Below, piece after piece: positions 633 through 14,254 of a stretch of DNA of 22,581 nucleotides. Location of the stretch: NCBI GenBank assembly GCA_024699005.1, contig JAILQN010000180.1, positions 1 to 22,581 on the forward strand, given 5' to 3'. Below the pieces are notes generated by a model. The model was not told the origin of the DNA. It saw only the letters and a program-made list of their open reading frames with translations, and did not search any database. Made by a program: the position numbers and the translations under genes. Each line of letters begins with the position of its first letter. Position 1 is the stretch's first letter. Source of the stretch: Clostridia bacterium. GTDB lineage: Bacteria > Bacillota_A > Clostridia > Oscillospirales > Acutalibacteraceae.

Positions 633-1328
633 TTATTTGTTTTCTGCCAGCCACTGAGTGTATCTTCTTAAAAAATCGGTTTTCTGACGGCGGCTGACTG
701 TCACGATATCGCCGTTGTCCATGGTTATCCTGTCATCTTTGTGGCGTTCAGCGTGTGCGAGATTGATTATTTCGCTGCGGTTCACGCGGAAGAAAGCTCC
801 CGCCGGGAGATCCTTTTCAATATCGTAAAGTGTCCTGCGGGAATTGTAGACCGTGCCTGATGTAACGACAGAGATGTTCGATTTGCCGGGAAGGCGAAAG
901 ATGCGGATGATCTCATTTGCCGGTATGCTCAGATCCGTCATCACCATGACCGGTCTTTTTTCGTTGAGACCCGAAAAAAACGTGTCGAATGTTTTTTTGA
1001 TCTTCAAGGCATCGACCGGTTTTAATATGAATCTGAGGTGCTTGACCTCATAGGAGTCGAAAATGTATTCCGGAAATGCAGAGAAAAAGACGATATCCGA
1101 TCCGGCGGAGTTCTCACGCAGTTTTTTCGCAAGCCCGAGCCCGTCCTCACCGGGCAGACGGCAATCGATAAAGATAAGGTCGAATTGCGTATCGGCTGAG
1201 AGAAGTTTTTCTGCGTCGTAAAAACAGCGGATTTCGGATCTTATCCCTCTGCGGTCAAGATCCTCCGCGATAAGGCAGGATATTTCTTCGGTTATGACCT
1301 TTTCGTCATCGCATACGGCAATCTTCAT
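633..1328 (-). CDS. LytTR-family response regulator
   Basis: The 231-residue protein has the usual length and two-domain layout of LytTR/AgrA-type regulators. Residues 1-120 are a receiver domain with the acidic pocket CDDE at 6-9, the phosphoacceptor Asp55 in FIDCRLPGEDG, a Ser in the FFSAF strand and the conserved Lys in FILKP. Residues 130-228 form a LytTR DNA-binding domain, recognisable from FFRVNRSEIINL, the following MDNGDIVTVSRR strand and the FLRRY end. A GAGGT ribosome-binding site lies about 8 bases upstream of the ATG. The gene has a strong consensus promoter and two tandem operators upstream (1360-1469), which suggests that it regulates itself. It is followed immediately by the probable sensor kinase. 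The same operator upstream of 3736 suggests that its targets include the neighbouring surface-protein locus. Confidence 0.95.
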   Translation of the reverse strand: MKIAVCDDEKVITEEISCLIAEDLDRRGIRSEIRCFYDAEKLLSADTQFDLIFIDCRLPGEDGLGLAKKLRENSAGSDIVFFSAFPEYIFDSYEVKHLRFILKPVDALKIKKTFDTFFSGLNEKRPVMVMTDLSIPANEIIRIFRLPGKSNISVVTSGTVYNSRRTLYDIEKDLPAGAFFRVNRSEIINLAHAERHKDDRITMDNGDIVTVSRRQKTDFLRRYTQWLAENK

Positions 1329-3735: not shown

Positions 3736-6700
3736 ATGACAAGAAAGCTGTTGAGTATTCTGATTTGCTGCGTTCTTATGATCAGCGCGGCTCCCGTCGG
3801 CGTTTTTGCTGTTGAAGGCGCAGATGACGGGCATATCGATCTCGATCTCGAAGAGTCTTACGACGACGATCCTGCTGATGACGGTCCCGATGAACCGGAC
3901 GAGCCTTCGGCCTCGCGATCCGAACCCGGAAAGTGCGGCGAAAATGTTACATACTCTTTTGATGAAAGCAGTGGTGTTCTGACCGTCAGCGGCACCGGAG
4001 CGATGTATGATTATTATCTGGATGCGCCCTCACCGTTTTCAGGCAAAGAAAGCATCCGCAACGTAATAATAGAATCCGGAGTAACGTCGATCGGACAATT
4101 AGCGTTCTATCTCTGTAAGGGTATCGAAAGCATCACTATTCCGGACAGCGTGATCTCGATAGGCCCGAGGGCGCTTGCCGCTTGCGTGAGATTGACAAAT
4201 CTGCGTCTGCCCGGCGGAGTTGCGTCTGTTGGGGACGATGCGTTTTTCCGCTCCGGAATTGAGACATTAGAGGTATCTCCGGACAATCAGGTCTTTCACA
4301 GCGCGGGAAACTGTCTTATTGAAACAAAAACCGGAACTCTTCTTTTAGGCTGCAAAAACAGCGTTATACCTGCCGACGGCAGCGTGACCGCTATCGGTGA
4401 CGGCGCCTTCTCCGGGAACACGGAAATCAAAAACGTCATCTTGCCTGACTGCATTGTTTCGATCGGAGACAGCGCTTTTGACGGATGTGCCGGGCTGAAG
4501 GAAATATCAATACCGGGCAGCGTGAAAGATATCGGAGCCAGTGCATTTGAGAGCTGTACCGGCATAACTGCCGTAACCGTACCGGGCAGCGTTCAGACCA
4601 TCGGCAGCAACGCGTTTGACGGTTGTTCCGGACTTGAGAGCGCAACGATCGAAGACGGTGTGACTTCGATCAGTCCGGCGATGTTCGAGGATTGTGAAGC
4701 GCTTCGCAGTGTTTCAATCTCCGGCAGCATGAAGACAATAGAAAATTACGCTTTTTACAATTGCAAAAATCTTACAGATATTACATTGCCGGAAGGTCTG
4801 ACGACCATAGGAGGCTGGGCTTTTGAAAATTGCGTGGCGCTCACAGACGTTTCCATTCCGTCGGGCGTGACCGCTATGGAGAACGATATTTTCATCGGCT
4901 GTACCGGTATTGAAAAAATGGAAGTCAGGGACGGTAATCCCGTTTACCACAGCGCAGGCAACTGCATTATAGAAACAGACAGCGGGCTTCTGATATCCGG
5001 ATGCAAAAACAGTGTCATTCCGGACGACGGCAGCGTCAGGGCGATAGATTGGGAGGCATTCAGCGGCTGTACCGGACTTAAAACCATAACCATTCCCGCC
5101 AGCGTCTCATATATAGACACGCAGGCATTCAGCGGCTGCACGGGACTTGAAGAGCTGATAATATCCGAGGGCGTTGAGTCAATAGGGTACGCCGCGTTCT
5201 GCGGCTGTTCTTCACTGAAAAGCGTAACCATCCCCGCAACCGTAAATGATATAGATCTTATCGCGTTTGCCGAATGCGACGCTCTCACACAAATGACGGT
5301 GAGCGAAGAGAACCCCGTTTATCACAGCGCAGGGAACTGCATCATCGAAACCGGAACAAAGACACTGATAACCGGATGCAAAACGGCGGAAATACCCGGT
5401 GACGGCAGTGTTGCGGCGATATGCGAAGACGCGTTTTTAGGGTGCGCGGGTCTTGAGAGCGTGATAATACCGGATGGAGTGACAGCAATACCCCAAGGGG
5501 CGTTTTTCGGCTGTACCGACCTTAAAAACCTGATATTGCCGGAGGGACTGCTCTCAATAGGCGCTTACGCGTTTCAGGATTGTGTATCTCTTGATAATAT
5601 CAATAACAACGTAACATATGATGGTGAGAACACGCGTTCCTATTCAGCAATAACGCTCCCGGAAAGTTTAACGGAAATAGGCGCAGAAGCATTTTCCAAT
5701 TGCCGCAGCCTGCCCTGGATGATAGTTATACCCGGCAGTGTAAAAACAATACCCTACGGGGCTTTTTCCTGCTGTGAAAATCTTGAACGCGTCGTTATCT
5801 CAGACGGAACGGAAAACATTGACGATTCTGCGTTCTCCAAATGCTCTGAACTTAATGCCATAACCATTCCTGCGAGCGTGGTGTCAATAGGCGATACTTT
5901 TATAAGCAGCACGAATGACACTGTGGTCATTATCGGCGCCGCAGATTCCTGCGCTCAGGAATGGGCTGACGAACATCACATGACGTTTGTTTCCGAAGGC
6001 GATAAATATGAACTCAAAAGCGGCTGGCTTTCAAATGACATATCCTATATCATTGACGACAACGGCGTACTGACTATCAGCGGAACGGGCGAAATGAGGG
6101 ATCTTACCGAGAATTCCCCGTTCAGAGGCAATGAGTCCATAAAAAAAATCGTGATAGAGGACGGCGTCACGTCCATAGGCGATTGGGAGTTTATGGACTG
6201 TTCGGGAGTAACAGGCGTTACCATCCCCGGGAGCGTAAAATCAATAGGCAATCTGGCGTTCGACGGATGTTCCGGTTTGACAAACGTTACACTGCCGGAG
6301 GGGCTTGAATATTTAGGCCCCAGGTACAACAACGGCGCTTTTCGCAGCTGTACGGGGCTGACCGATATAACTCTGCCCGGAGGCATAGGTTATGTCGGTG
6401 ACAGGCTGTTCGGCGGCTGCGAGAATCTGGAACGCGTGGTCATAATAAACGGCGTGACAACAATAGAAGACGATGCGTTCATCGGCTGTTCAAAGCTTAA
6501 AACCGTAATCATCCCTCCGACTGTTGACGAAATAGCTCCGGCTGTTGTGCCGGAAAGCGCGACAGTCGTCGGCGCCGCCGGATCTTTTGCCGAGGACTGG
6601 GCGAATAATAATGACCGGAGATTTGAGGAATACTCAAAGGGCGACGTTGACGGTAACGGAGAAATCCTGGCAAGCGATGCGAGACTTGCTCTTCGCGCCT

Positions 6701-6849
6701 CCGCAAAACTTGAGCAGCTCGGAGACTGGCAGACAAAACTGGCAGACGTCGACGGCAGCGGTGAAATACATGCAGACGATGCAAGACAGATCCTCAGATT
6801 TTCAGCAAAACTTCAGTCTGCTTTTGAAGTTGCCGCTTTAAAAAAATGA
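3736..6849 (+). CDS. LRR_5 (BspA-like) surface protein with C-terminal type I dockerin
   Basis: The 1037-residue protein starts at an ATG 7 bases after AGGAGG. Residues 1-25 are a signal peptide, followed by an Asp/Glu-rich stretch (about 26-62). Two CGENVTYSFD / GVLTVSGTGAM-type modules (about 67-95 and near 757-780) each introduce a run of LRR_5 units of the form AFxGCxGLxxVTIPxSVxxIG, more than twenty in all. A subunit with HSAGNCIIET appears three times (from 4291, 4942 and 5317). Residues 968-1030 are a dockerin with two calcium loops, DVDGNGEILASD and DVDGSGEIHADD, each followed by an A-R-x-x-LR helix. LRR_5 proteins bind host or polymer surfaces in characterised cases. The dockerin implies non-covalent attachment to a cohesin such as those encoded downstream. 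It is the first gene of the operator-linked locus. Confidence 0.93.
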   Translation: MTRKLLSILICCVLMISAAPVGVFAVEGADDGHIDLDLEESYDDDPADDGPDEPDEPSASRSEPGKCGENVTYSFDESSGVLTVSGTGAMYDYYLDAPSPFSGKESIRNVIIESGVTSIGQLAFYLCKGIESITIPDSVISIGPRALAACVRLTNLRLPGGVASVGDDAFFRSGIETLEVSPDNQVFHSAGNCLIETKTGTLLLGCKNSVIPADGSVTAIGDGAFSGNTEIKNVILPDCIVSIGDSAFDGCAGLKEISIPGSVKDIGASAFESCTGITAVTVPGSVQTIGSNAFDGCSGLESATIEDGVTSISPAMFEDCEALRSVSISGSMKTIENYAFYNCKNLTDITLPEGLTTIGGWAFENCVALTDVSIPSGVTAMENDIFIGCTGIEKMEVRDGNPVYHSAGNCIIETDSGLLISGCKNSVIPDDGSVRAIDWEAFSGCTGLKTITIPASVSYIDTQAFSGCTGLEELIISEGVESIGYAAFCGCSSLKSVTIPATVNDIDLIAFAECDALTQMTVSEENPVYHSAGNCIIETGTKTLITGCKTAEIPGDGSVAAICEDAFLGCAGLESVIIPDGVTAIPQGAFFGCTDLKNLILPEGLLSIGAYAFQDCVSLDNINNNVTYDGENTRSYSAITLPESLTEIGAEAFSNCRSLPWMIVIPGSVKTIPYGAFSCCENLERVVISDGTENIDDSAFSKCSELNAITIPASVVSIGDTFISSTNDTVVIIGAADSCAQEWADEHHMTFVSEGDKYELKSGWLSNDISYIIDDNGVLTISGTGEMRDLTENSPFRGNESIKKIVIEDGVTSIGDWEFMDCSGVTGVTIPGSVKSIGNLAFDGCSGLTNVTLPEGLEYLGPRYNNGAFRSCTGLTDITLPGGIGYVGDRLFGGCENLERVVIINGVTTIEDDAFIGCSKLKTVIIPPTVDEIAPAVVPESATVVGAAGSFAEDWANNNDRRFEEYSKGDVDGNGEILASDARLALRASAKLEQLGDWQTKLADVDGSGEIHADDARQILRFSAKLQSAFEVAALKK

Positions 6850-6913: not shown

Positions 6914-9664
6914 ATGATTACAAAAAAAACCAAAATTATTCATTTGCTATCATTTTTGTTGACTGCTTCAATAGTAATTTTAGCCTTTTGTTCTGAATCG
7001 TTGATGATTCATTCAAATGCCAAATTGCTTGCAAAATCTTTTCAGCCAAGATTGACAGCACCTACTTCTTCCGACAAAGCATGGAAATGGTACAAGGAAT
7101 ACGATTACAGCAATAATTGCGCCAGATATGCCTATGCTCGTATTTGTGAAATCCTGGATACTGATATGCGTCCTTTATACGGACCGGGAACTCCGAATAG
7201 TAAATTTATTCCCCCAAACGCCCTGTCTTCAGAATTTGAAGATTGGTTGAAGTCATGTGGGTATGAATCCGAAACTGTTCCAAGACCGGGAAGTGTATAT
7301 GTTGTTAGCGGTCATGTAGCAATTGTCGAATTGGTTGATGAAAAACGTCATATAATTACTGTAAGCGAAGGAAATTCATTTTCGGATATGTCCAAAAATA
7401 ATGGCGTTATAACCTTTTTAACTGATGGTAAAGATGAGATTGGCGAATCAACTTTAACTCACGATCCAAAGCGTCCAGGTAATGGAACGTGGTTTGATGT
7501 TCGAGCAATAAATTATGTGGAACGTAAAGGAACTTATTATTATCTTTTACCAGAAGATTCAGAACCTCCAATAATAACCAATCCAAAGCCAGAGGAGAAA
7601 GATGAAAAAGGTTTTTATTGTTCCATATCTGCGAGTGATGCATTATCTAATGTTGCATCAGTATTCTTCTCGGTTGAACATGAATCCGGAACAAAAACAT
7701 TTCCAGCTAAAGAATATATAGCAACGAATATCTCTGGAAATAAATGGAGAACAAATAATAAAATACTGATTAATGATTTTGGAAATCAGTCAGGATTATA
7801 TCTCATTACAGCTAAAGCAACTGATGCAAACGGTTTTGTAGCGACAGAATCATTTAAGATATCCGTTGGTTCCCCAAATGGGACTAAATATAACATATTA
7901 TATTATCAAGAAGAAGGTTCGTTGAAGCAAAGTTCGACAAAAACGGCTGTTTCGTTCAACCATAAAACTTCAACAGCGAAAATCGAAGACCTGACAGATA
8001 TAAATAAAGCCGGATACGTATTTAAAGGATGGCATGTATACCGTGATTACGATGATACGTGGTATATGAAAAACAAATCGACCGGTGAAAAGTATTGGCT
8101 TCCCATGAAGGATGGTAAGGAGCCGGATGGGTTTGTTCGCGGTGTTTACAAGTCAGGAACCGAGGTTTCAAGGACAGCACCGTACGGGAATGTTTATTTT
8201 TACGGTACATGGACTCCCAAGACAATTACGGTCCAATATGACAACGGAAAGATCATTTCAACACAAAAGCAAAAACCGGTATACGGAGACGGAACGAAGG
8301 TGTTGACCGCGGACGCGCTCGGAAGTGATTTCAAGAAAACCGGTTATACTTTAAACGGTTGGAGAGTCCGGAAAGACGGAAAGTGGCTGGTCCGTAATAC
8401 AAGCACCAAAAAATTATACTGGCGTAACAGCGCCGGTTCCGGATATACGTATTATAAGCTCGGGCTTACAAGCGGCTTAAATACAGTTTTTAAATGCTCA
8501 GAAAACAACAATACGATCACACTTGTGGCTGCGTGGAAGGCAAACCGGTTTAAAATACAATACTACGCAAATCCAAATGGAAACTCATTATCCGGCGCAA
8601 AATATATTACGGGTTCAGATCAGTCTTGTGTATACGGAAGTAAAAACAAAACACAGACATATAAAAATCTTGGAATAACAGTTCCGACAGGTTATTCCGA
8701 ATTTAAAGGTTGGGTTGTGGTAAACAGTGCCGGAAAGCGTCGTTACAAGAGCATACTCGGAGACAACGCTTTGTGGTTGGATCCCGACACTGAAATGATT
8801 CCGATAGGGTACAAGATATGGCTTTATAAGAACGGCTGCAGCGTCACAAAGACTGTAAGTTCCGGTACGGTTAAGTTTTACGCACAGTTTACACCGAATT
8901 CTTACTCCCTTGATTACTATAACAACGGAAAAAAAGCTGACAGTTCCAAAGATTTAAATTATGGTAAAAAGTATAATGCAAAAACGCTTGCTCAAATTGC
9001 GAAGATTACGACACCGAAAGGTTATACGTTCAGAGGTTGGAAATTGCAGCGTCCCGATGGATCTTATCTGATGAAGAGAGTATCTGATGGCAAAAAGGTA
9101 TGGAAAAAACTATCCAACAATGCTGTCCCGTCCGGCTATAAGATTTATTATCATAATGATGGGTTCAGATTCTCGTCACTGACACCTGAAAACGGCAAAA
9201 CCGTAAAAGCAATTGCTTCATGGACGCCTATCAAGTATACGATCGAATACGGAAAAAGAAATGGAGGCGGTCCGGATACCGCAAGCCAGAAGACAACGGT
9301 AACTTACAACGTCAAACATTCCACCCGTTCATTCAAGAAACTGGGCTTTACTTCTCCAAATAATGATACAAAGAACTATGAAGGCCGTTGGCGTATTTAT
9401 CGGTCAGATACTAAAAAATGGTTGTGTTATGACACCAAGGATCAAAAGAAAGTCTGGATCACAGAGGACACATACAAATATAATAATGAACAAATTAATA
9501 ACCACAAACGTTATGTTTATTATTACTATAAGGAAAAGCAAGAAGTCAGCCGAACCGTTTCCACACCATGTACTGTCAGATTTGAGGTGTTTTGGCGTTT
9601 GAAAACAGGAAAGGGCGACAGTTGGGAAACATATGATAAAAATCTGAAAAAATGGCGGAATTAG
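6914..9664 (+). CDS. Exported CHAP-domain protein with five InlB-like/Flg_new repeats
   Basis: The 916-residue protein starts 10 bases after AGGAGA. Residues 1-37 are a signal sequence. Residues about 50-200 look like a CHAP (NlpC/P60-like) amidase or endopeptidase domain, with the candidate nucleophile Cys in NNCARYAYA and the His in SGHVAIVEL. Residues about 218-318 resemble an Ig-like bacterial surface domain (SASDALSNVASVFFSV). Residues about 322 to 900 are five units of roughly 110 residues. Each has an IxYYxNG strand, a GYxFKGWxVxR core and a xVxFYAxWTP end, like Listeria-Bacteroides (Flg_new/InlB B) repeats but lengthened by a Lys/Trp-rich insert. There is no dockerin or anchor. The first kilobase is visibly more AT-rich than its neighbours, which suggests separate acquisition. 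It could remodel peptidoglycan for insertion of the surface complex, or act as a toxin-like hydrolase. Confidence 0.85.
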   Translation: MITKKTKIIHLLSFLLTASIVILAFCSESLMIHSNAKLLAKSFQPRLTAPTSSDKAWKWYKEYDYSNNCARYAYARICEILDTDMRPLYGPGTPNSKFIPPNALSSEFEDWLKSCGYESETVPRPGSVYVVSGHVAIVELVDEKRHIITVSEGNSFSDMSKNNGVITFLTDGKDEIGESTLTHDPKRPGNGTWFDVRAINYVERKGTYYYLLPEDSEPPIITNPKPEEKDEKGFYCSISASDALSNVASVFFSVEHESGTKTFPAKEYIATNISGNKWRTNNKILINDFGNQSGLYLITAKATDANGFVATESFKISVGSPNGTKYNILYYQEEGSLKQSSTKTAVSFNHKTSTAKIEDLTDINKAGYVFKGWHVYRDYDDTWYMKNKSTGEKYWLPMKDGKEPDGFVRGVYKSGTEVSRTAPYGNVYFYGTWTPKTITVQYDNGKIISTQKQKPVYGDGTKVLTADALGSDFKKTGYTLNGWRVRKDGKWLVRNTSTKKLYWRNSAGSGYTYYKLGLTSGLNTVFKCSENNNTITLVAAWKANRFKIQYYANPNGNSLSGAKYITGSDQSCVYGSKNKTQTYKNLGITVPTGYSEFKGWVVVNSAGKRRYKSILGDNALWLDPDTEMIPIGYKIWLYKNGCSVTKTVSSGTVKFYAQFTPNSYSLDYYNNGKKADSSKDLNYGKKYNAKTLAQIAKITTPKGYTFRGWKLQRPDGSYLMKRVSDGKKVWKKLSNNAVPSGYKIYYHNDGFRFSSLTPENGKTVKAIASWTPIKYTIEYGKRNGGGPDTASQKTTVTYNVKHSTRSFKKLGFTSPNNDTKNYEGRWRIYRSDTKKWLCYDTKDQKKVWITEDTYKYNNEQINNHKRYVYYYYKEKQEVSRTVSTPCTVRFEVFWRLKTGKGDSWETYDKNLKKWRN

Positions 9665-9708
9665 AAATGAGCCCACATGCGTAATACTTATTTAAAGGAG
9701 GAATGGAT

Positions 9709-10623
9709 ATGAAAAGAAATCGAAAAAGATTGAGCATATTAGTTCATATTTTGACCGTTGTTTTCGCTGCCGCTCTTTTTTCTTTGTTTATTTTTGCCGA
9801 AGATGCAGAAGATGCCAATGATGAAACAATTTCAGGAGTTCCCTCGGATGTCGCTACAGACGGAGATGCGTCGTCCGAAGCATTAGGCTATGAAGACGAA
9901 GGTATGGGAAATTTTGTGGTTGGCGGCGACGAAGACGCTCTTGACGTTGAAACATATGAAGGCGATGTAGACGACGCAGACGGCGAACCAGATGCGCTCC
10001 CGGCGATGGCTGATGACAGCGGGGCGGATTCAGAAGATCCCATCGAAGAAAAGATCATTGATCCGGAAAATCCGGTTTTGCTTTTTAATGAATCGGAGAG
10101 TATTATTGGTATATATGGCGCATATCTTGTTTTTAAAGTAGATAAAAGCAGTGAACAAAAGATGACCGGATACACGCTTAAGCTCACACGAGCCACGGAC
10201 GGAACATCCGTCGAAGGCGTCGCGGAATTGCAGGACGAAGGATATCTGCGCTATAATATTACCGCGTATACCGGCGAACTTCTGCCTGGTTTCACCATGA
10301 CTCCCGATACTGAATATAAATACGTATTCAGCGTTACCGTCGACGGAAAAGCATACTCAAAGACCGGCAGTTTCCGGACGGCTGCCGCTGCAGAACAACC
10401 GGTTAAAGTTTTGTGCGGTGATATAAATGCCGACGGCAAAGTTAATAACAAAGACAGTACAATTCTGGCCAGATATCTTGCCAAATGGGACGGTTATGAA
10501 GAGCAGATAGTTTCCATGGAAGCTGCTGATGTTAATAAAGACGGAAAGGTAAACAATAAGGACAGAACGATCCTTGCAAGATATCTGGCAAAATGGGATG
10601 GATATGCCCAGTATTTTGAATAA
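9709..10623 (+). CDS. Exported acidic protein with FnIII-like domain and C-terminal type I dockerin
   Basis: The protein has about 304 residues. The ATG at 9709 is chosen over 9703 because the AAGGAGG site ends only about 2 bases before 9703. A signal peptide (1-30) is followed by a long Asp/Glu-rich low-complexity region (about 31-115). Residues about 125-225 look like a fibronectin type III-type beta sandwich, ending in TEYKYVFSVTVDGKAYSKTG. The C-terminal dockerin (236-304) has two nearly identical halves, DINADGKVNNKD and DVNKDGKVNNKD, each followed by x-TILARYLAKWDGY. Its recognition helices differ from those of the dockerins at 3736 and 12683 and resemble those of the protein encoded just downstream. 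This is probably a non-catalytic client of the surface complex. It sits 28 bp before the sortase-fusion gene. Confidence 0.88.
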   Translation: MKRNRKRLSILVHILTVVFAAALFSLFIFAEDAEDANDETISGVPSDVATDGDASSEALGYEDEGMGNFVVGGDEDALDVETYEGDVDDADGEPDALPAMADDSGADSEDPIEEKIIDPENPVLLFNESESIIGIYGAYLVFKVDKSSEQKMTGYTLKLTRATDGTSVEGVAELQDEGYLRYNITAYTGELLPGFTMTPDTEYKYVFSVTVDGKAYSKTGSFRTAAAAEQPVKVLCGDINADGKVNNKDSTILARYLAKWDGYEEQIVSMEAADVNKDGKVNNKDRTILARYLAKWDGYAQYFE

Positions 10624-10651: not shown

Positions 10652-12655
10652 ATGAAACGCTTTATTTCATCTATTCTATGTATTATACTTATTTTATCTT
10701 GTTTTTCGGTTTGCGTATCTGCGACCGGCGAAGGGACTATTGCTGCAAGTACGGCAAAGGCAAAACCGGGAGATACTGTTAATATTCAGGTGAGTATCAG
10801 TAACAATCCCGGTGTGATGATACTTGGATTAGATGTAGGATATGATTCTTCGGTGATGAAGCTGACAAAGGTTACGGACGGCGCATTGCTCGGAACCGCA
10901 ACGCACACCGAAAATCTTGAACTTAATCCTTATCGGCTTACATGGGATAATCCTACCGTAACGACTGATTTTACTCAAAACGGTGTGATCGCGACTCTGA
11001 CATTCTTGATAAATAATGATGCTTCTCAAGGTTCTTATCCAGTTTCTCTTTCATATGAAAAGGACAATTCCGAAATTATGAATGTGAATATGGATGATGT
11101 TGATTTCGTTCTTGAGAATGGGGTTATCGAAATTGAAGACGGACATACTCATACGTCCGTAACTATTCCCGGCACGGCGGCAACCTGTACAGAAGATGGT
11201 ATGACTGACGGAGAGAAGTGTTCCGAATGCGGTAAGATACTGAAAAAACAGGAGATCATTCCCGCAGCAGGACACAAGTGGGATGAAGGGAAGGTCACAA
11301 AAGCTCCGACCTGCACCGGGGAAGGTGTGAAACAATTCACATGTACGGTTTGTGATGAAAAGAAAACCGAATCGGTCGCATCTCTCGGACATGACTGGGC
11401 TGTTGATTTCACAATCGATAAAGAACCGACAGCTGCAGCGCCGGGCGAGAAGTCGATTCACTGTTCCCGCTGCGATGCGCGTAAGGATATTACGGAGATT
11501 GAAAAGATACATACTCATACGTCTGTAACTATTCCCGGTAAAGCGGCAACCTGTACAGAAGAAGGGATGACTGACGGAGAGAAATGTTCCGGATGCGGTG
11601 AGATCCTGAAAAAACAGGAGATCATTCCCGCAACAGGACACAAGTGGGATGAAGGGAAGGTCACAAAAGCTCCTACATGCACTGAGGAAGGTGTAAAACA
11701 GTTCATATGTACGGTTTGTGATGAAAAGAAAACCGAATCGGTCGAATCTCTCGGACATGACTGGGCTGCTGATTTTACGATAGATAAAGAACCCACGTTT
11801 ACAATGCCGGGAGAAAAGTCCGTTCACTGTTCTCGCTGCGATGAGCGTAAGGATATTGCGGAGATCCCGATTAAAATACTATATGGGGACGTGTATAAGG
11901 ACGGCAAAGTGGACGGCAGAGACGCGACCCGTCTGCTCCAGTATTTCGCCAAATGGGACGTGGAGATAAACGAGGAGGCCGCGGACTGCTGGCCCGACGG
12001 AAAAATTGACGGCAGAGACGCCACTCGTATCCTGCAATATCTGGCGAAATGGCCTGTAGTATTAGGATCGAAAAACAGTTATGTCTGTCCTGTTGATCTC
12101 GATGCTTACAAGAGGCAGAATGCGGATATCTATTCCTGGCTTGAGATTCCCGGTTCCGAAATAAGTTATCCTGTGTTCCAGCATCCAACGGAAAATGAGT
12201 ATTATCTCAGGCGTGATATAAACGGCGATTATTCCGTAAGAGGCGTTCTGTTCACCGAAGCCGGGTACAACGGCAAAGACTATAATGATCCTGTGACAGT
12301 TATTTACGGGCATGATATGCAGGACGAAACAATGTTCGGGCCCCTGCAGGAGATGTACTCGAATGATGAAGGGCTTGCCCGGTATCAGACCATAAAAATC
12401 TATCTTCCGGACAGGGAACTTACGTATCGGGTGTTCGCATGCGTTCCGTATAGTGACGAACATATATTATACAATTACGATTTCAAAGATGCCGACTCTT
12501 TTGATCGGTTCTTTGCCGGGATATCACAGATAAGTTCTGAACAGGCGATTTTCAGTCAGATCTCCCTTGAAAAAACTGACAAGGTTCTGATTCTCTCGAC
12601 ATGTTTGTCCGGAAACAGTGACGGCCGTTTCCTTGTCTGCGCCAAGCTTGTTTGA
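10652..12655 (+). CDS. Cohesin / Cys-rich tandem repeat / dockerin / class B sortase fusion protein
   Basis: The protein has 667 residues. The ATG at 10652 follows GGAGGG by about 10 bases and begins a signal peptide (1-24); the longer frame from 10574 overlaps the previous gene. Residues about 26-155 resemble a type I cohesin (PGDTVNIQVSISNNPG, YDSSVMKL, SYPVSL). Residues 165-408 are two 122-residue repeats, each with four CxxC-like pairs (for example CSECG and CTVCDEK), possibly metal-binding. Residues about 410-470 are an internal dockerin with loops DVYKDGKVDGRD and DCWPDGKIDGRD. Residues about 471-667 are a class B sortase domain: IPGSEISYPVFQHP, His554 in IYGHDMQDETMFGPL, Cys651 in LSTC and Arg659, so the catalytic triad is intact. 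Sortases are normally separate enzymes with an N-terminal membrane helix; here the enzyme appears tethered through cohesin-dockerin contacts. Confidence 0.9.
   Translation: MKRFISSILCIILILSCFSVCVSATGEGTIAASTAKAKPGDTVNIQVSISNNPGVMILGLDVGYDSSVMKLTKVTDGALLGTATHTENLELNPYRLTWDNPTVTTDFTQNGVIATLTFLINNDASQGSYPVSLSYEKDNSEIMNVNMDDVDFVLENGVIEIEDGHTHTSVTIPGTAATCTEDGMTDGEKCSECGKILKKQEIIPAAGHKWDEGKVTKAPTCTGEGVKQFTCTVCDEKKTESVASLGHDWAVDFTIDKEPTAAAPGEKSIHCSRCDARKDITEIEKIHTHTSVTIPGKAATCTEEGMTDGEKCSGCGEILKKQEIIPATGHKWDEGKVTKAPTCTEEGVKQFICTVCDEKKTESVESLGHDWAADFTIDKEPTFTMPGEKSVHCSRCDERKDIAEIPIKILYGDVYKDGKVDGRDATRLLQYFAKWDVEINEEAADCWPDGKIDGRDATRILQYLAKWPVVLGSKNSYVCPVDLDAYKRQNADIYSWLEIPGSEISYPVFQHPTENEYYLRRDINGDYSVRGVLFTEAGYNGKDYNDPVTVIYGHDMQDETMFGPLQEMYSNDEGLARYQTIKIYLPDRELTYRVFACVPYSDEHILYNYDFKDADSFDRFFAGISQISSEQAIFSQISLEKTDKVLILSTCLSGNSDGRFLVCAKLV
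11144..11875 (+). repeat. 366-bp in-frame tandem duplication encoding Cys-rich modules
   Basis: Two adjacent units begin with CATACTCATACGTC at 11144 and 11510, so the period is 366 bp or 122 codons. They remain very similar at the DNA level, with mostly single-base differences. This indicates a recent duplication or ongoing homogenisation and a likely source of length variation between strains. Confidence 0.9.
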
Positions 12656-12682
12656 TTACGTTATTATATGAGGTATAAAACT

Positions 12683-13318
12683 ATGGTCAAAAGAACACTA
12701 TCATTAGTTTTGACGGTCCTTATGCTTTGCGCTGTTCTGTCTTTCGGAGCGTATGCCGAAAACAGAGGACCGTTCAGGTGCATTGCCGTGAATGTGTCTC
12801 TGGACGAGAATCCGGGCATCGATTATCTTAAAATAAGAGTATCTTATGAAAAATCGAAGCTGGACCTGATAGAGGTGACCGACAAGGAGATTCTCAAGGG
12901 ATTTCAGTTTGTGTCCGGAAAGTCATTATCGGACGATCCATACCATGTGTTGTGGGCGGCATCGGAAGATAATAACAGTACCGGAGAATTGTTGAGACTG
13001 GCTTTTGAGGTTAAGGCTCCTTCTGCCGGTAACAATTACGACATTTCCGTGGAGGTGGATTCCGCCTTTAATCAGGAAATGGAAAGCGTGGAAGTCAAAC
13101 TCAGCTCCAAAATATTTGCGTCTTACGACATCGGAGATGTGGACGGGAACGGCAAGGTTTTTGCGAACGACGCGAGACTCGCACTAAGGGCGTCGGCGAG
13201 GCTGGAAGAATTGTCCCGCGAAGCTTTCTATGCCGCCGACTGTGACAGAAACGGCGTAATAACAGCGGGTGAAGCTAGAATGATACTCAGATATTCGGCG
13301 AATTTGCCGTTGAATTAA
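12683..13318 (+). CDS. Small exported cohesin-dockerin adaptor protein
   Basis: The protein has about 211 residues. The ATG at 12683 is chosen because GAGGT ends 8 bases before it, whereas the upstream in-frame ATG at 12668 has no such site. After a signal peptide (1-24), residues about 30-145 are a cohesin-like domain closely related to that of the next gene, sharing LDENPGIDYLKI, LSDDPYHVLW and AFNQEMESVEV. Residues about 150-211 are a dockerin with loops DVDGNGKVFAND and DCDRNGVITAGE and the helix ARLALRASARLEEL, very like the dockerin of the LRR_5 protein at 3736. One cohesin plus one dockerin is the layout of adaptor scaffoldins such as ScaC of Ruminococcus flavefaciens. Here it could link dockerin clients to the membrane cohesin encoded next. 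Confidence 0.87.
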   Translation: MVKRTLSLVLTVLMLCAVLSFGAYAENRGPFRCIAVNVSLDENPGIDYLKIRVSYEKSKLDLIEVTDKEILKGFQFVSGKSLSDDPYHVLWAASEDNNSTGELLRLAFEVKAPSAGNNYDISVEVDSAFNQEMESVEVKLSSKIFASYDIGDVDGNGKVFANDARLALRASARLEELSREAFYAADCDRNGVITAGEARMILRYSANLPLN

Positions 13319-13333
13319 ACAGAGGTAATAATG

Positions 13334-14254
13334 ATGAAGAAATATTTTTGCATTGCAATAGTACTGCTGATGCTTTGCGCCGCGATCGCATTCGGTGTCA
13401 ATGCGGCCGAAGCCAGTCCCGGTAAGACAGTGCAGGTCAGTGTCGACCTTTCCGAAAATCCTGGGCTCAATTATCTGGGATTAAATATCTCTTATGACAG
13501 CTCGGTCATGACTTTGAGATCAGCGGACAATACGGGCGTGCTCAACGGCGGTTTTACTTCCGGGAGGTACCTGTCCGCAGATCCTTACGCCGTGATCTGG
13601 AGTTCTGACGGTGATATGACCGGTGAGGGCAGCATTCTCACGCTTACATTTGATGTGAGAGACGACGCCGCAGACGGAACGTATCCTGTCAATGTTGAGG
13701 TTGAAGGCGCCTATAACCAGAATATGGAAGAGGTGAACGTCAGCGCTTACGCCTCGAGCGTCTCCGTAAAACATGCTCCTGAGACTACCACAAAACCGCC
13801 GGAAACTACTACAAAGCCACCGGCAACTACAACGAATCCGGTAACCACGACAAAGCCGCCTGCGACTACAACGAATCCGGTAACCACGACAAAGCCTCCC
13901 GAAACCACCGACAAACCGGAAACGACGACGAAGCAGCCCGAAACTACCGCGAAACCGGGAACGACCGCCGGGCAGACAGAGAACGGTACGAAAACCGGAA
14001 CTTCCGTTACAACAACGCAGCCCGCAGTCATCAATGACTTTTCGGTCACGGAGCCTTTGGCTTCGACCTACGGTGAGGCGGAAAATGTTTCCGCTCCTTC
14101 TGGCGTTAACGCGGAGTCCGCGACGGATACGGACGGTACGGTAAACAGCAGCCGCACAGGTAAAGTGATCGGTATCTCTGTCGCCGCAGTCGTCATCGTC
14201 GCCGCAGCGGTGGGAGTGTTCTTCGTTATAAAAAAGAAGAGACTTGCCGTATAA
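13334..14254 (+). CDS. Membrane-anchored single-cohesin protein (anchoring scaffoldin-like)
   Basis: The protein has 306 residues. The ATG at 13334 has a better distance to GAGGT than the adjacent ATG at 13331, which cannot be excluded. A signal peptide (about 1-25) precedes a cohesin domain (about 28-150; PGKTVQVSVDLSENPG, LGLNISYDSSVM, YPVNVEVEGAYNQ). A Thr/Pro/Lys linker (about 153-220; repeats of ETTTKPP and TTTNPV) and a low-complexity stretch follow. The end is a hydrophobic helix (278-299) with the tail KKKRLAV. Directly before the helix is SSRTG (272-276), which resembles the S/PPxTG-type signals of some class B sortases but lacks the Pro. Single-cohesin cell-surface anchors such as ScaE are the closest known parallel. 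It is the last gene before the palindromic terminator. Confidence 0.87.
   Translation: MKKYFCIAIVLLMLCAAIAFGVNAAEASPGKTVQVSVDLSENPGLNYLGLNISYDSSVMTLRSADNTGVLNGGFTSGRYLSADPYAVIWSSDGDMTGEGSILTLTFDVRDDAADGTYPVNVEVEGAYNQNMEEVNVSAYASSVSVKHAPETTTKPPETTTKPPATTTNPVTTTKPPATTTNPVTTTKPPETTDKPETTTKQPETTAKPGTTAGQTENGTKTGTSVTTTQPAVINDFSVTEPLASTYGEAENVSAPSGVNAESATDTDGTVNSSRTGKVIGISVAAVVIVAAAVGVFFVIKKKRLAV

Follow-up and report, generated by a model that had tools for sequence, protein, structure and literature searches.

A sortase and its substrates normally come together through their shared location in the membrane, and class B sortases usually retain an N-terminal helix. The known systems that come closest to the protein described here include class B enzymes of the type of C. 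difficile SrtB, which, according to the accessible part of the report, cleaves SPKTG between T and G (PMC4371152). Where sortases and cohesin-dockerin systems meet in the available passages of the literature, anchoring scaffoldins are the substrates of sortases (PMC12997984, PMC11557425, PMC2930009, PMC4081043, PMC12484212, PMC3573020, PMC5814915, PMC9112005), which is the reverse of the arrangement found here. Phrase and word searches of the open-access literature, within the text they reached, returned no sortase with a dockerin or a cohesin, in line with an earlier sequence-only reading of this DNA that knew of no described example. We analyzed a stretch of 22,581 nucleotides (the window; contig JAILQN010000180.1 of Clostridia bacterium assembly GCA_024699005.1) in which a sortase domain shares one open reading frame with both modules:

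10652..12655, plus strand: fusion protein of 667 residues with signal peptide, cohesin, two Cys-rich modules, dockerin and class B sortase (frame, Pfam, NCBIfam, solved-structure sequences, AlphaFold, Foldseek)
10652..10723, plus strand: signal peptide, residues 1-24, ending CVSA/TG with the cleavage site placed by eye; the sole hydrophobic stretch of the protein
10736..11134, plus strand: cohesin domain, about residues 29-161 (Pfam, AlphaFold, Foldseek)
11144..11509, plus strand: Cys-rich module 1, residues 165-286 (repeat comparison)
11510..11875, plus strand: Cys-rich module 2, residues 287-408, 85% identical to module 1 (repeat comparison)
11882..12043, plus strand: type I dockerin, residues 411-464, with two similar calcium-loop repeats (Pfam, solved-structure sequences)
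12077..12652, plus strand: class B sortase domain, residues 476-667, with His554, Cys651 and Arg659 (NCBIfam, Foldseek, alignment with relatives)

The frame is open from the ATG at 10652 up to the stop codon ending at 12655. A TTG upstream at 10574 would give a frame of 693 residues, and the ATG is the probable start because the signal-like N-terminus begins there. The order of domains had been proposed from the letters alone, and profile and structure comparisons bear it out. Pfam places Cohesin at residues 32-134 (E 3.6e-12), Dockerin_1 at 411-464 (E 1.6e-9) and Sortase at 497-667 (E 2.7e-8), all three above the Pfam cut-offs. The NCBIfam class B sortase model matches at E 3.7e-32 with 111.5 bits, below its curated threshold of 153.75. 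Sequences of solved structures gave the same picture, with C. difficile SrtB at E of about 1e-18, clostridial dockerins at about 2e-6 and cohesins at about 1e-4. An AlphaFold model of the whole frame built from 57 sequences has a mean pLDDT of 68; the sortase is mostly above 90 and the cohesin mostly above 80, and the Cys-rich modules and the dockerin are poorly predicted. Among the best 50 rows of a Foldseek search with this model, class B sortases aligned with TMt of 0.68-0.83 and single-cohesin chains with 0.58-0.76. Judged from sequence and model, a class B sortase bearing a cohesin and a dockerin in one frame is a real and unusual architecture, known from one contig.

The scaffold half of the protein has a relative that lacks the sortase. 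P0004 is a cohesin - Cys-rich - cohesin - dockerin protein whose dockerin is 77% and whose Cys-rich module is 90-93% identical to those of the fusion, which shows that such modules occur in other combinations. It ends a few residues past its dockerin, at the point where the sortase part of the fusion starts, and two kinds of module known apart elsewhere thus appear to be joined here in one frame. The Cys-rich modules, of 122 residues each, have no Pfam match at E 0.01; their DNA is 90% identical over 300 nucleotides, with exact shared stretches as long as 40 bp. The calcium loops of the fusion dockerin carry Tyr and Trp at position 3, a position usually held by Asn or Asp.

The sortase half points to a particular ancestry. 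A search with the sortase domain, restricted to its size class, matched 146 proteins and listed 120; the nearest of them stand alone and are about 250 residues long. The catalytic assignment made by the sequence-only reading agrees with the alignment, in which His554, Cys651 and Arg659 are conserved in the fusion and in all 40 aligned relatives. Two other near-invariant positions differ (D601S and R603E, conserved in 37 and 36 of the 40), which could mean altered substrate specificity or decay. The seven closest sortases among those listed (P0006-P0012) are stand-alone, 58-80% identical, and all carry a lipobox at Cys23; this class B clade resembles lipoproteins and not helix-anchored enzymes. 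Among the remaining 113 listed sortases the lipobox pattern occurs in four, each time inside an apparent membrane helix, and many relatives have a hydrophobic N-terminus without a lipobox. In a tree of 41 sequences the fusion sortase is nested within the P0006-P0012 clade, on a branch longer than those of its sisters, with support of 90 for its grouping with P0006, P0007, P0008 and P0010, 88 when P0009 is added and 100 for all eight. Homology to the lipoprotein-like sortases begins at YVCPVDL, about 12 residues past the dockerin, in place of the lipoproteins' linker. No lipobox was found in the fusion protein, and its hydrophobic 19-mers lie at the N-terminus only, as had been claimed. Together these comparisons suggest that a lipid-tethered sortase of lipoprotein-like origin was moved onto a cohesin/dockerin scaffold.

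The earlier statement that known sortases are stand-alone membrane enzymes holds in part: the nearest relatives do stand alone, but they look like lipoproteins, and other fused sortase frames exist. In two genomes a pilin-like protein is fused to a class B sortase (L074:5032-9963 and L076:1933-3753, both on the minus strand, the latter frame cut by the contig end), in the order pilin-like repeats (by eye), VPQTG sorting signal with helix, second helix and sortase, which places substrate and sortase on one polypeptide. In two others (L059:3532-6486 and L077:2408-5260, both minus strand) CinA, assigned by Pfam in L059 and by eye in L077, is followed by a membrane helix and a class B sortase. P0003 (404 residues) continues in frame from its sortase into a part ending in SAKTG, a helix and a basic tail, as read by eye.

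The fusion gene lies in a row of four genes that run head to tail (9703-10623, the fusion, 12668-13318 and 13331-14254) with gaps of 28, 12 and 12 bp. The surroundings are as follows:

633..1328, minus strand: LytTR-like response regulator (by eye), upstream of the surface-protein cluster
3736..6849, plus strand: leucine-rich-repeat surface protein with a C-terminal dockerin (Pfam 21.7 bits, just below the 22.9 cut-off)
6914..9664, plus strand: protein with CHAP (peptidoglycan hydrolase-type) and Listeria-Bacteroides repeats (Pfam); no dockerin at E 0.01
9703..10623, plus strand: secreted protein with a C-terminal dockerin (Pfam), the row's nearest to that of the fusion (48% identical)
12668..13318, plus strand: adaptor-like protein with cohesin and dockerin, both just below the Pfam cut-offs
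13331..14254, plus strand: cohesin, Thr/Pro-rich linker, SSRTG-K, C-terminal membrane helix and KKKRLAV tail (Pfam, hydrophobicity); candidate partner and substrate

The dockerin of 12668-13318 is nearest to that of the leucine-rich-repeat protein (59%) and 42% identical to that of the fusion. Among the seven window proteins scanned with Pfam, no dockerin-bearing glycoside hydrolase was found, and of seven window proteins checked for hydrophobic stretches only 13331-14254 has one beyond the N-terminus. The homologue search saw this cohesin protein on one contig only.

Loci of related stand-alone sortases indicate what such enzymes may act on. At 17 of the 37 loci with enough flanking sequence (four of 41 were dropped for short flanks), a neighboring gene within 1.5 kb encodes a C-terminal sorting signal: SPQTG in nine, SPTTG and SAQTG in two each, and APITG, PPKTG, SPATG and GYATG in one each, the protein scored for GYATG also carrying SAQTG. 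Of the other frames of at least 100 residues in these loci, 23 of 2069 pass the same test, a figure that includes the 17; in L013 and L021 the test also overlooked signals that other inspections show. In loci L001-L078, the proteins that end in a helix and a basic tail carry S[PA]xTG in 25 of 42 cases near related sortases vs none of 24 elsewhere. Position 2 of the SxxTG signals near related sortases is Pro or Ala in 25 of 25, and Ser in none. The sole C-terminal sorting-like signal in the window, SSRTG-K followed by a helix and KKKR in the cohesin protein 13331-14254, is non-canonical in having Ser there. This protein is probably the best candidate substrate of the fusion sortase, and two comparisons weaken the assignment. 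The presence of Pro or Ala in all 25 counts against SSRTG as a substrate signal. Furthermore, among other helix-ended cohesin proteins (P0127, P0131, P0135 and P0136, from the 10 of 17 hits inspected; P0135 and P0136 are nearly identical) a TG signal was seen in P0131 only, as IPATG, so that the helix of 13331-14254 may be a plain anchor.

The same architecture was sought in other sortases, and none was found in the frames and proteins covered. Dockerin and cohesin profiles, which recovered their positive controls, matched none of 74 sortase frames in fetched loci (these overlap, so that fewer distinct genes are involved), none of 122 sortase proteins, and none of the 19 sortase frames recognized when 12 regions were read in the genus whose RNase Y is nearest, for which 29 sortase matches are listed and some were opened. 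A simpler pattern search for dockerins was set aside, as it failed to recover three of the window's four dockerin proteins. Within 398 genomes of one family, 100 match a dockerin-sortase query at E ≤1e-22, and the lowest query start among the matches listed is 49; the dockerin occupies query residues 4-57, and a minority of the matching frames was opened. Sampling the family around two further centers gave apparently the same 200 genomes and little that was new. A protein search for dockerin-sortase combinations (lengths of about 367-1167 residues, shared words needed) returned five proteins, of which the fusion alone has both domains, and in a collection of 5.8 billion proteins the fusion is one member sequence from one contig. 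Long sortase frames of relatives, considered as possible cases, were instead pilin-like or CinA fusions, frames with disordered-looking N-termini, or merely open upstream sequence (Pfam or by eye). A scan of viral contigs gave one weak relative.

The RNase Y encoded in the window reaches no more than 65% identity with its counterparts in the 398 sampled genomes. Seven fetched loci around RNase Y showed no such gene row, although one of them (L084) has three dockerin frames. In the genus nearest by RNase Y (65%), cohesins occur in 11 of 11 genomes and sortases in 10 of 11, and the window sortase has no match at E 1e-30 in the 11. Of nine regions read beside sortases of that genus, seven encode a protein that carries an IPQTG-type signal and looks von Willebrand-like by eye, and the nine contain no cohesin by profile. 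Loci of this cohesin-bearing genus (L086-L094 and L098-L105) show tandem sortase pairs with long N-termini, most of which have such a von Willebrand-like protein (by eye, IPQTG-type signal) as a neighbor.

Our best reading, to which we give about an even chance, is that the dockerin stands in for the sortase's lipid tether and fixes the enzyme to a cohesin at the surface, where it joins a substrate to the wall. The fusion protein would be exported by its signal peptide, which would then be cleaved. The lost tether, to judge by the nearest relatives, would be a lipid anchor, replaced by the cohesin - Cys-rich - Cys-rich - dockerin part. The dockerin would plug into a surface cohesin, most simply that of the membrane-held 13331-14254 protein two genes downstream, and docking would keep the sortase where sorting happens. 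There it would cut the Thr-Gly bond of an S-x-x-T-G signal and join the substrate to the wall. If 13331-14254, with its SSRTG, helix and KKKR, is that substrate, docking could bring enzyme and substrate together, and the fusion's own cohesin could hold a further dockerin protein. Behind this proposal stand the domains, the catalytic residues, the gene order, the lipoprotein-like origin and the occurrence of S[PA]xTG beside many related sortases. The lipobox of all seven nearest sortases vs none in the fusion supports the dockerin as a replacement for the tether. The long branch, D601S and R603E, Tyr and Trp at position 3 of the calcium loops, and the occurrence as one member sequence on one contig count against the proposal. 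A bolder form, which we think rather doubtful, is that the dockerin grips the cohesin of the enzyme's own SSRTG substrate, so that one plug would take over from the membrane tether and also select the protein to be attached to the wall; once anchored, this cohesin would receive the remaining parts of the complex.

The other explanations that we considered are not all mutually exclusive with this reading or with one another. The fusion may be a young accident, in which a gene for cohesin, Cys-rich and dockerin modules became linked to that of a lipoprotein sortase, through an in-frame deletion or an exchange of modules, and the enzyme was left as a passenger, without special use or decaying. 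Its single occurrence (none in the 74 and 19 sortase frames or the 122 proteins), the long branch with D601S and R603E, and the end of P0004 just where the sortase begins all fit such an event. The catalytic residues and the frame are intact, however, and each of the three flanking genes of the row codes for a protein with a cohesin or a dockerin (12668-13318 just below both cut-offs), and we regard an accident as somewhat unlikely. An artificial join, with the dockerin and sortase parts brought together from different genes in assembly, could account for a protein with one member on one contig among 5.8 billion, and the exact stretches of up to 40 bp in the Cys-rich repeats and a GC3 that varies between the parts of the gene (0.36 to 0.66, and 0.21 in the signal peptide) would suit it. 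Yet no exact repeat of at least 18 bp lies at the dockerin-sortase join (plus strand, within the window), the repeats detected in the gene fall within its Cys-rich modules, and the downstream cohesin protein was likewise seen on one contig only, so that the rarity may belong to the organism; a chimera is highly improbable.

If the N-terminal helix is instead an uncleaved anchor, as in ordinary class B sortases, a dockerin is unnecessary for tethering and the extra modules would do no more than bring surface proteins to the enzyme, which counts against the best reading. The helix that class B sortases usually keep and the many relatives with a hydrophobic N-terminus and no lipobox fit a conventional membrane enzyme. 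Here, however, a signal-peptidase-like VSA-TG (by eye) closes the N-terminal stretch and is followed directly by the cohesin, and we regard this explanation as unlikely. The sequence-only reading had proposed that the sortase covalently fixes or cross-links components held by cohesin-dockerin contacts, which would give a covalent scaffold in place of anchoring to peptidoglycan. Enzyme, cohesins and dockerins do occur together, and the title of structure 3psq links a class B sortase of S. pyogenes to pilus biogenesis. Against this, a C-terminal sorting-like signal is present in one window protein only, related class B sortases often adjoin one protein with a wall-sorting signal, and the row's one protein with a C-terminal helix is the cohesin protein. 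We consider a covalent scaffold very unlikely, and wall anchoring by an unusually tethered enzyme would explain more with less.

If docking of the sortase is confirmed, a calcium-dependent plug would offer a natural means, exchangeable at need, of mounting an enzyme that welds proteins on a scaffold, and docked protein ligation could take it as a ready-made design. It would also extend the cohesin-dockerin world from polymer breakdown to the building of the cell surface.

In comparison with class B sortases of the C. difficile SrtB type, as described in the accessible part of PMC4371152, the fusion has the same fold, the same His-Cys-Arg residues and probably the same S-x-x-T-G substrate logic. 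It differs in showing no membrane or lipid anchor of its own besides the signal peptide, in having 475 further residues at the N-terminus that include the cohesin and the dockerin, and in a candidate substrate signal of SSRTG in place of SPxTG. R. bromii Amy4, in the available text of PMC5814915, likewise combines an enzyme with a cohesin and a dockerin, the enzyme being an amylase there and a transpeptidase here. R. flavefaciens dockerin proteins with transglutaminase-like, peptidase and NlpC/P60-like (RflaF_05439) enzymes resemble the fusion in placing a dockerin on a protein-acting enzyme, and the accessible passages on these non-sugar enzymes name no sortase among them (PMC2930009, PMC3573020). 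In the anchoring scaffoldins (R. flavefaciens ScaE, R. bromii Sca2 and Sca5, and Limousia cSca5), as far as the available descriptions go, a cohesin is held at the surface by a C-terminal sortase-type signal and a dockerin protein plugs into it. What appears to be new in the window is a variant of a known enzyme class in which these roles are exchanged: in the scaffoldins it is the sortase substrate that belongs to the cohesin-dockerin system, whereas here the sortase enzyme itself carries the dockerin and the cohesin.
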